NCBI RefSeq assembly: GCF_029688845.1
Contig: NZ_JARUKW010000019.1
Coordinates: 1 to 64,000 of the forward strand
Direction: 5' to 3'
Origin: Natronococcus sp. A-GB1
GTDB lineage: Archaea > Halobacteriota > Halobacteria > Halobacteriales > Natrialbaceae
Length of the DNA: 64,000 bases
A program made the translations under genes and the position numbers. The notes under the pieces were generated by a model that ran no database searches, was not told the origin of the DNA, and saw nothing but the letters and a program-made list of their open reading frames with translations. Each line of letters begins with the position of its first letter. The first letter of the stretch is position 1. Shown here one piece after another: positions 10,088 to 36,993 of the stretch.

Positions 10088-10252
10088 GTCCGGGAGTTTG
10101 TCTGGGCGATCAAAGCGGTTGCTGTCTCTCGGCGTGGCTCGAGCGACGAGCGCCGTCGCTCTCGAGTGTAGCGTTCGTCAGAATTTATGCGTGGGTGATG
10201 TCCGCGAAGGGAGATCACCTGCATCGTCGCTCGGCGGTTACACCGTCGTTTC

Positions 10253-10332
10253 ACGGGTGCGAAGCACCCGTTCAACGGCTCGCGGAACCGAAGGTTCCGC
10301 GCTCGCCTCGCGTTTGGTGGACTTCGTCCACC
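10253..10332. repeat. Triple-hairpin repeat next to tRNA-Leu
   Basis: Three consecutive perfect hairpins. First ACGGGTGC-gaa-GCACCCGT (10253-10271), second CGCGGAACC-gaa-GGTTCCGCG (10281-10301), third GGTGGAC-ttc-GTCCACC (10316-10332). The first two, with a 9-base linker containing ACGG, form the same two-hairpin unit that occurs twice at 36588-36758. The last hairpin is 7 bases from the 3' end of tRNA-Leu, so the cluster could also stop its transcript. No protein is encoded here; open frames across it are not credible. Confidence 0.8.
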
Positions 10333-10339
10333 CGTGCGA

Positions 10340-36327: not shown

Positions 36328-36587
36328 GCAACGGAAACGAGTGTCGAGACGTGGCCGCGTTCGTCAGCATCTCGGCAAGTGCCGGCCGACATCCGTGTCT
36401 GGAAGAGATGGGTTCGACGGGAACAGTTCGGGCGCGACCGTTCCTCGGCCGGAGCGAGGGGCTGACTCGAGTGAATCGAAGGAGTTCGATGCCGGTTCGC
36501 TTCGGAACCCGTCTCGACGAACGAGAACAGCGTCGTGCCAACCCGAACACGGGGAACTGCCACACCCTCCCCAGCCGACTTCTGCTC

Positions 36588-36683
36588 ACGGGTGCTGTGC
36601 ACCCGTTCGCACGGTCCGCGGTACCTTCGGTTCCGCGCTACGCTCCCTCCGGTCGCTCGTCCACTGGCAGAGCGCGCTCTGCC
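36588..36683. repeat. Double-hairpin repeat, copy 2 (plus a third palindrome)
   Basis: ACGGGTGC-tgt-GCACCCGT (36588-36606), linker TCGCACGGTC, then CGCGGTACC-ttc-GGTTCCGCG (36617-36637, one mismatch). After about 28 bases a perfect 18-base palindrome GGCAGAGCGCGCTCTGCC (36666-36683). Same order and spacing as at 10253-10332. Confidence 0.85.
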
Positions 36684-36708
36684 AAGCCTTTGCTCGTATT
36701 ATCTGCTC

Positions 36709-36758
36709 ACGGGCACGAAGTGCCCGTTCGCACGGTACGCGGGACTATCGGTCCCGCG
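36709..36758. repeat. Double-hairpin repeat, copy 3
   Basis: ACGGGCAC-gaa-GTGCCCGT (36709-36727), linker TCGCACGGTA, then CGCGGGAC..GTCCCGCG (36738-36758). The first stem differs from copies 1 and 2 at two base pairs, changed on both arms, so pairing is kept. Both this copy and copy 2 start with TCTGCTC. Confidence 0.85.
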
Positions 36759-36993
36759 CTACTCGCAAAGACCTCACACGATGTCGAACCACCCCTCGCT
36801 GCGCTCGTCGCGGTTCAGCGCGTGCCACGTTGTTCGGTTCCTCGAGCGCGATTCCGAACCCGAACGGCGGCGCTGCACCCCTCGTCGCGAGTCCTCGAGC
36901 CAGTAGCGCCGGTATCCTCTCCGCTCGAGTGGACTTTCAGACTGGCACGATAAACCGTCGATACTTAGGTATCCACTCTCGAAACGGTCACGC

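Follow-up and report, generated by a model that had tools for sequence, protein, structure and literature searches.

The double-hairpin repeat that occurs three times in the window (the whole stretch of 64,000 nucleotides of Natronococcus sp. A-GB1 DNA that was analysed) is most probably a discrete 60-bp non-autonomous mobile DNA element of haloarchaea, a reading to which a probability of about 0.8 was given. Exact presence or absence of 60 bp at orthologous sites, without target duplication beyond an ambiguous 2 bp, argues for a discrete mobile DNA element and not for a host RNA gene. Comparison of copies and sites demonstrated the mobile unit itself, together with where it begins and ends, how it folds and how widely it occurs. 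No earlier description of the 60-bp double-hairpin element was found in the open-access literature.

Three copies of one unit

The first-pass annotation of this DNA had reported three copies built on one plan, and the letters and coordinates of these (10246-10305, 36588-36637 and 36709-36758) proved correct, as did the two base pairs changed on both arms of stem 1 (ACGGGTGC/GCACCCGT versus ACGGGCAC/GTGCCCGT) and the series A-T, T.T and G-C at position 6 of stem 2. The repeat plan and the hairpins had thus been recognised, but the 60-bp boundaries (TCTGCTC...CTA), the TGC/GCA stem lying outside hairpin 1 across a TC/TC loop and the apparent mobility of the unit had been overlooked (Table 1). 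Copies A and B are 80% identical across 61 aligned columns, a span that starts at TCTGCTC and takes in CTA and one base of the flank. Copy C reads ACGGGTGC-GAA-GCACCCGT ... CGCGGAACC-GAA-GGTTCCGCG, with CGTT/AACG as its outer stem. The source genome (G000) is a draft of 4.5 Mb in 57 contigs, and the neighbouring endonuclease V gene has its nearest named orthologues in Natronococcus (96% at the amino acid level to N. amylolyticus). The 3' flank of tRNA-Leu(gag) (window 10225-10335) is a hotspot, in which the hairpin arrangements between GCATCG and CGATGC differ among the Natronococcus genomes compared.

Table 1. Positions in the window of the three copies, their hairpins and the associated repeat features
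Feature	Position	Strand	Remarks
Copy A, complete 60-bp double-hairpin element	36581..36640	+	TCTGCTC-HP1-TCGCACGGTC-HP2-CTA; covariance model E 9e-18
Copy A, hairpin 1 (HP1)	36588..36606	+	ACGGGTGC-TGT-GCACCCGT; 8 bp, triloop
Copy A, hairpin 1 with outer stem	36583..36611	+	TGC 36583-36585, TC/TC internal loop, GCA 36609-36611; from DNA and RNA folds and covariation
Copy A, hairpin 2 (HP2)	36617..36637	+	CGCGGTACC-TTC-GGTTCCGCG; single T.T mismatch (position 6)
Copy B, complete 60-bp double-hairpin element	36702..36761	+	covariance model E 5e-18
Copy B, hairpin 1	36709..36727	+	ACGGGCAC-GAA-GTGCCCGT
Copy B, hairpin 2	36738..36758	+	CGCGGGAC-TATCG-GTCCCGCG
Copy C, complete 60-bp double-hairpin element, divergent	10246..10305	+	3' of tRNA-Leu(gag); covariance model E 4e-10
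Carrier repeat, dispersed family of about 300 bp hosting copies A and B	36544..36780 (approximate)	+	non-coding; CCTCCCCAGCCGATT...TGGCAGAGC/GCTCTGCCA...TTACTCGCGAAGACCTCGCAC
Palindrome TGGCAGAGCG/CGCTCTGCCA	36665..36684	+	belongs to the carrier, not to the 60-bp unit; present in L102 without copy B

Occupied and empty orthologous sites

At copy A, the window exceeded the corresponding site of N. amylolyticus (L101), where GCCGACT directly adjoins CGCTCC, by exactly 60 bp, and the junction overlap was 0 bp. Copy A was also present in two more distant relatives, Natronococcus sp. A-GB7 (L102) and a related MAG (L103). As it is missing in the closest relative and present in more distant ones, the empty site in N. 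amylolyticus represents either a precise loss of copy A or an empty site gained by recombination, and is no demonstration of insertion in the lineage of the window. At copy B, the window was exactly 60 bp longer than the site of A-GB7, in which GTATTA adjoins CTCGCAAAG, with a 2-bp TA ambiguity; the copy was likewise absent from the related MAG, where GTATTG adjoins CTCGCAAAG. The site of copy C was exactly 60 bp longer than that of a congener (L306), in which GGTTACACCG adjoins CCTCGCG, with a 2-bp CG ambiguity. With overlaps of 0, 2 and 2 bp at these three orthologous empty sites, no target duplication was observed beyond the ambiguous 2 bp. In a fourth case, a unit inserted in another unit was compared with an uninterrupted paralogue from the same genome (L184 versus L011), and one target base had been lost.

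No terminal inverted repeats were found, the ends TCTGCTC... and ...CGCTA not being inverted copies of each other. A MITE of a DDE transposase was therefore rejected, as both terminal inverted repeats and a target duplication are lacking. Since each window copy is missing at the orthologous site of some relative, no conserved host function depends on the copy at that place.

Range, copy number and insertion targets

A covariance model was built from 12 genomic copies, with copies A and B among the 12 and copy C not. The search of the genome and its relatives that the first-pass annotation had proposed was performed with this model and returned about 18 strong copies in the source genome; 60 of the 61 Natrialbaceae genomes were matched, the copies per genome among the matches listed ranging from 0 to at least 53. 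Across the class Halobacteria, 146 of 194 genomes and 51 of 65 genera matched (E <= 1e-4). None of about 100 non-haloarchaeal genomes in a phylum-wide draw did so, which serves as a specificity control for the covariance model. The range is class-wide and the copy number patchy. A loose gapped DNA pattern alone gave 3 matches against 2.0 expected, which is not above chance, because such a pattern, unlike the covariance model, requires no complementarity. Copies were also seen on haloarchaeal plasmids or secondary replicons (12 haloarchaeal plasmid records), and a degenerate pattern of 32 nt found nothing in viral contigs. In genome G028 (L237, L245, L252, L253), the loop of hairpin 1 contains another complete double hairpin, a case of nesting.

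The 97 copies fell into 27 distinct flank contexts. On the left, C was found at -5 in 23/27 and at -3 in 18/27, with a pyrimidine at -2 in 26/27; on the right, T was found at +2 in 17/27 and C at +3 in 21/27. The target is loosely preferred, approximately CNCYG before and YTCGC after the insertion point, and often lies inside other palindromic repeats.

When a 400-kb sample of the genome was scanned for double hairpins without a preset family, 22 pairs were returned against 0-4 in randomised sequence; about 4 of them were of the 60-bp family, and the remainder comprised composites, palindromes in coding sequence and members of other families. A second double-hairpin family, GGCGTTG-ACGAGACG..CGTCTCGT-TTGCACA-CCAGAACG..CGTTCTGG-GGACG, adjoins tnpB genes (L012, L057, L062, L064), and its stems are variable too. 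Elsewhere (L172 17600-17720; G000:C1:317600-317720), four perfect tandem hairpins of lower GC than their surroundings adjoin an apparent coding region.

Search for the mobilising enzyme

Y1 transposase and TnpB counts were examined, and no mobilising enzyme was identified among them. Copy number was uncorrelated with the count of Y1 transposases (IS200/IS605, PF01797; Spearman -0.005, n = 57 genomes) and with that of TnpB (Spearman 0.03), both coefficients ignoring kinship and using the copies among the matches listed. Genomes with at least 31, at least 27 and at least 12 copies contained no Y1 transposase (PF01797, E <= 1e-5). The Y1 transposase was rejected as the mobiliser on account of this missing correlation and its absence from copy-rich genomes, and TnpB on account of its missing correlation with copy number. 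In the source genome a single Y1 gene was found (L052, G000:C18), which is interrupted by two double-hairpin insertions of other sequence, one of 51 nt ending in a TAG stop and one of 54 nt preserving the reading frame.

A sub-case of the mobile-element explanation, one that names the enzyme, is that the unit is a core-less form of the palindrome-associated transposable elements (PATEs) of Haloquadratum walsbyi, whose sequences link them to IS605-type transposons (PMC3119063). It would then consist of near-terminal palindromes from an IS200/IS605-type element, fused together and moved by a Y1 transposase that has since often disappeared from the genome. The unit and the PATEs share the absence of terminal inverted repeats, the near-terminal palindromes, the lack of target duplication (here beyond the 2-bp ambiguity) and a length too short to code, and PATEs include a similar 52-bp terminal-only form (PMC3119063); the tnpB genes adjoining several copies and the left-flank preference also favour this origin. 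However, the PF01797 count, which copy number does not track, was zero in the copy-rich genomes G049 and G022, and a non-exhaustive search of the source genome turned up no element carrying a transposase between the two hairpins, and no parent element was found. Furthermore, the hairpins are two and different, not one duplicated, and the fixed TC/TC internal loop and class-wide range also set the unit apart from PATEs. Information was present in the right as well as the left flank, unlike classic IS200/IS605 targeting. This PATE sub-case was considered possible but rather unlikely.

The small mobile repeats (SMRs) of Haloquadratum are bounded by prominent terminal inverted repeats and measure about 80-110 bp (PMC3119063). 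They resemble the unit in being very short, in lacking target duplication and in having no assigned mobiliser, but the unit is shorter and has no terminal inverted repeats. SMRs insert into other palindromic mobile elements, and the unit may favour such targets too, many of its contexts being repeats, tnpB 3' ends or the unit itself. Among the Haloquadratum classes, the unit shares most with PATEs.

Repeats that carry the unit

Several of the contexts are themselves repeats, so some copies have spread as passengers. Contexts of this type were the carrier of about 300 bp, the 3' stretch of tnpB elements (with CAGGAAGCCCCA to the left and CCCTCAAGGAGCG to the right of the insertion) and the 60-bp unit itself; composite repeats likewise contain copies. 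The carrier occurs at more than 25 places in the source genome, and versions of it without the unit are known (L008 and others). At three loci (L208, L209 and, around 1501-1561, L012), units lie within the tnpB 3' stretch, the expected place of the TnpB guide RNA. It might be supposed that the unit is nothing but a passenger of such larger repeats, spread with the carrier and with tnpB 3' ends through homologous recombination and having no mobility of its own, and many copies are indeed explained by repeated contexts. This was nevertheless judged improbable, as units were found at different positions in the same carrier, in 27 contexts in all and nested in one another, and as the empty orthologous sites are clean.

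Fold and covariation

The structure alignment of 97 copies was fitted to the main stems, and the proportion of paired cells in these stems, 98-99%, therefore leans upwards. Folding of single copies revealed the outer TGC/GCA stem below hairpin 1, across the TC/TC internal loop. This outer stem was 98.5% paired, with a middle pair of G-C in 72, C-G in 10, A-T in 3 and T-A in 2, and the two sides of the internal loop were fixed in 82/89 and 80/89 rows. As the outer stem was absent from the covariance model, its covariation constitutes an independent check. Two-sided changes were observed in 16 of 22 pairs against 8.7 +/- 1.4 in shuffles, and in 149 cells against 26, so that the compensatory changes claimed for the family by the first-pass annotation lie well above chance; the signal was lost when partners were slid by 1-3 columns. 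Around hairpin 2, GGT and TA(C) paired weakly (83%), and this pairing is tentative. Copies folded as single-stranded DNA gave z values of -4.7 to -5.8, and RNA folds were stable on both strands. The two-hairpin fold is kept as its paired bases vary.

DNA or RNA

When one base of a Watson-Crick pair undergoes a transition, G.T and A.C arise equally often, and selection on RNA tolerates G.T only. In the two helices of hairpin 1 together with hairpin 2, 18 G.T and 14 A.C cells were counted, whereas 17 tRNAs from the same locus set gave 22 G.T and 0 A.C (Fisher p = 2.5e-4 against the repeat stems), a control that is a guide and not proof, the tRNA caller itself being biased against A.C. The near equality of G.T and A.C indicates that the stems are not kept intact by RNA wobble pairing. 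The loop of hairpin 1 in copy A reads TGT in the window and in A-GB7 and ACA, the exact reverse complement, in the related MAG (L103) with the stem unchanged, which points to hairpin inversion at the DNA level. Loops in the family often form reverse-complement pairs (GAA/TTC, GGA/TCC, GCA/TGC), and the tip of hairpin 1 frequently reads GCGAAGC, an extraordinarily stable DNA mini-hairpin.

Selection on a folded RNA (a riboregulator, processing site or mRNA stabiliser), with compensatory changes keeping its helices, would account for the strong covariation, the stable RNA folds on both strands and the conserved unpaired segments. It is nonetheless highly improbable in view of the mismatches, so unlike those of tRNAs, of an Rfam search of the window that returned a 16S rRNA fragment only and left the repeat unmatched, of presence and absence that vary among close relatives at 3/3 window sites, and of flanks that vary from copy to copy. 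On the same mismatch, Rfam and orthologous-site evidence, the RNA half of the original proposal of a folded RNA or cruciform is not supported, and a DNA-level hairpin or cruciform was retained as the better fit.

Purely neutral palindrome evolution, in which template switching forms hairpins and makes them perfect, neither function nor transposition being involved, explains the simultaneous changes on both arms and the loop inversion in a DNA that is hairpin-rich compared with shuffles, but has hardly any probability as the whole explanation and was ruled out as such, because it cannot yield the same 60-nt sequence with shared ends in 27 contexts and more than 140 genomes, or exact 60-bp differences at orthologous sites. 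Template switching is, however, likely as the way in which the arms stay matched.

Possible mechanism and relation to known repeats

A mobile element of this structure may be recognised and moved as a folded single strand by a trans-acting enzyme. Such an enzyme would read the shape together with short conserved unpaired segments (the TC/TC loop, the TCGCAYGGT linker and the CTA end), much as single-strand DNA transposases read IS200/IS605 or REP hairpins. Stem perfection would be kept by the need to fold and by DNA-level palindrome processes such as arm-templated correction and hairpin inversion. The single-stranded route by itself was given roughly even odds. The fuller proposal, a class-wide, structure-recognised 60-bp DNA element moved in haloarchaea by single-strand DNA machinery other than IS200/IS605, is put forward tentatively and at appreciably less than even odds.

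Mitochondrial double-hairpin elements (Allomyces and others) consist of two tandem hairpins with variable stems and show signs of mobility. Likened by description only, the 60-bp unit also combines a tandem pair of hairpins with signs of having been inserted; we know of no sequence relationship between them, and none is expected.

Bacterial REP, BIME and REPIN sequences with their TnpA-REP (RAYT) enzymes, for which single-stranded DNA mobilisation in trans has been proposed, share with the unit short palindromes, a stem irregularity and a conserved unpaired foot (PMC8266576, PMC2817692, PMC3116915). REP processing needs a hairpin whose stem is irregular and whose foot is unpaired (PMC8266576), but also requires RAYT and a GTAG foot, of which the G would here be flanking DNA: the minus strand reads NTAG at the foot of hairpin 2, and model position 61 is C in 36, T in 24, A in 21 and G in 4 copies (n = 85). 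The REP/BIME link of copy number to a Y1/RAYT transposase was also not found for the unit in the 57 genomes correlated above, and in Archaea only IS200-type TnpA of subclass 1.1 has been reported (PMC6006769). The analogy with REP sequences is one of function, not of membership. CGTC-tagged palindromic repeats are also dispersed palindromes without a dedicated transposase and are often paired, but are bacterial single hairpins of other sequence, marked by the CGTC tag (PMC3733652).

Short palindromic repeats abound in prokaryotes, for the most part without a settled account of their movement. The present family shows that an RNA need not lie behind compensatory base changes in a genomic repeat, and that the ratio of G.T to A.C offers a simple test that separates a DNA repeat from an RNA. 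If the fuller proposal above is true, the 60-bp unit would be among the smallest well-bounded mobile elements and an example of a wider haloarchaeal set of double hairpins. Its exact boundaries, the empty orthologous sites, the conserved internal loop and the copy-rich hosts without a detectable IS200-type transposase allow its mobiliser to be sought by direct tests in haloarchaea.
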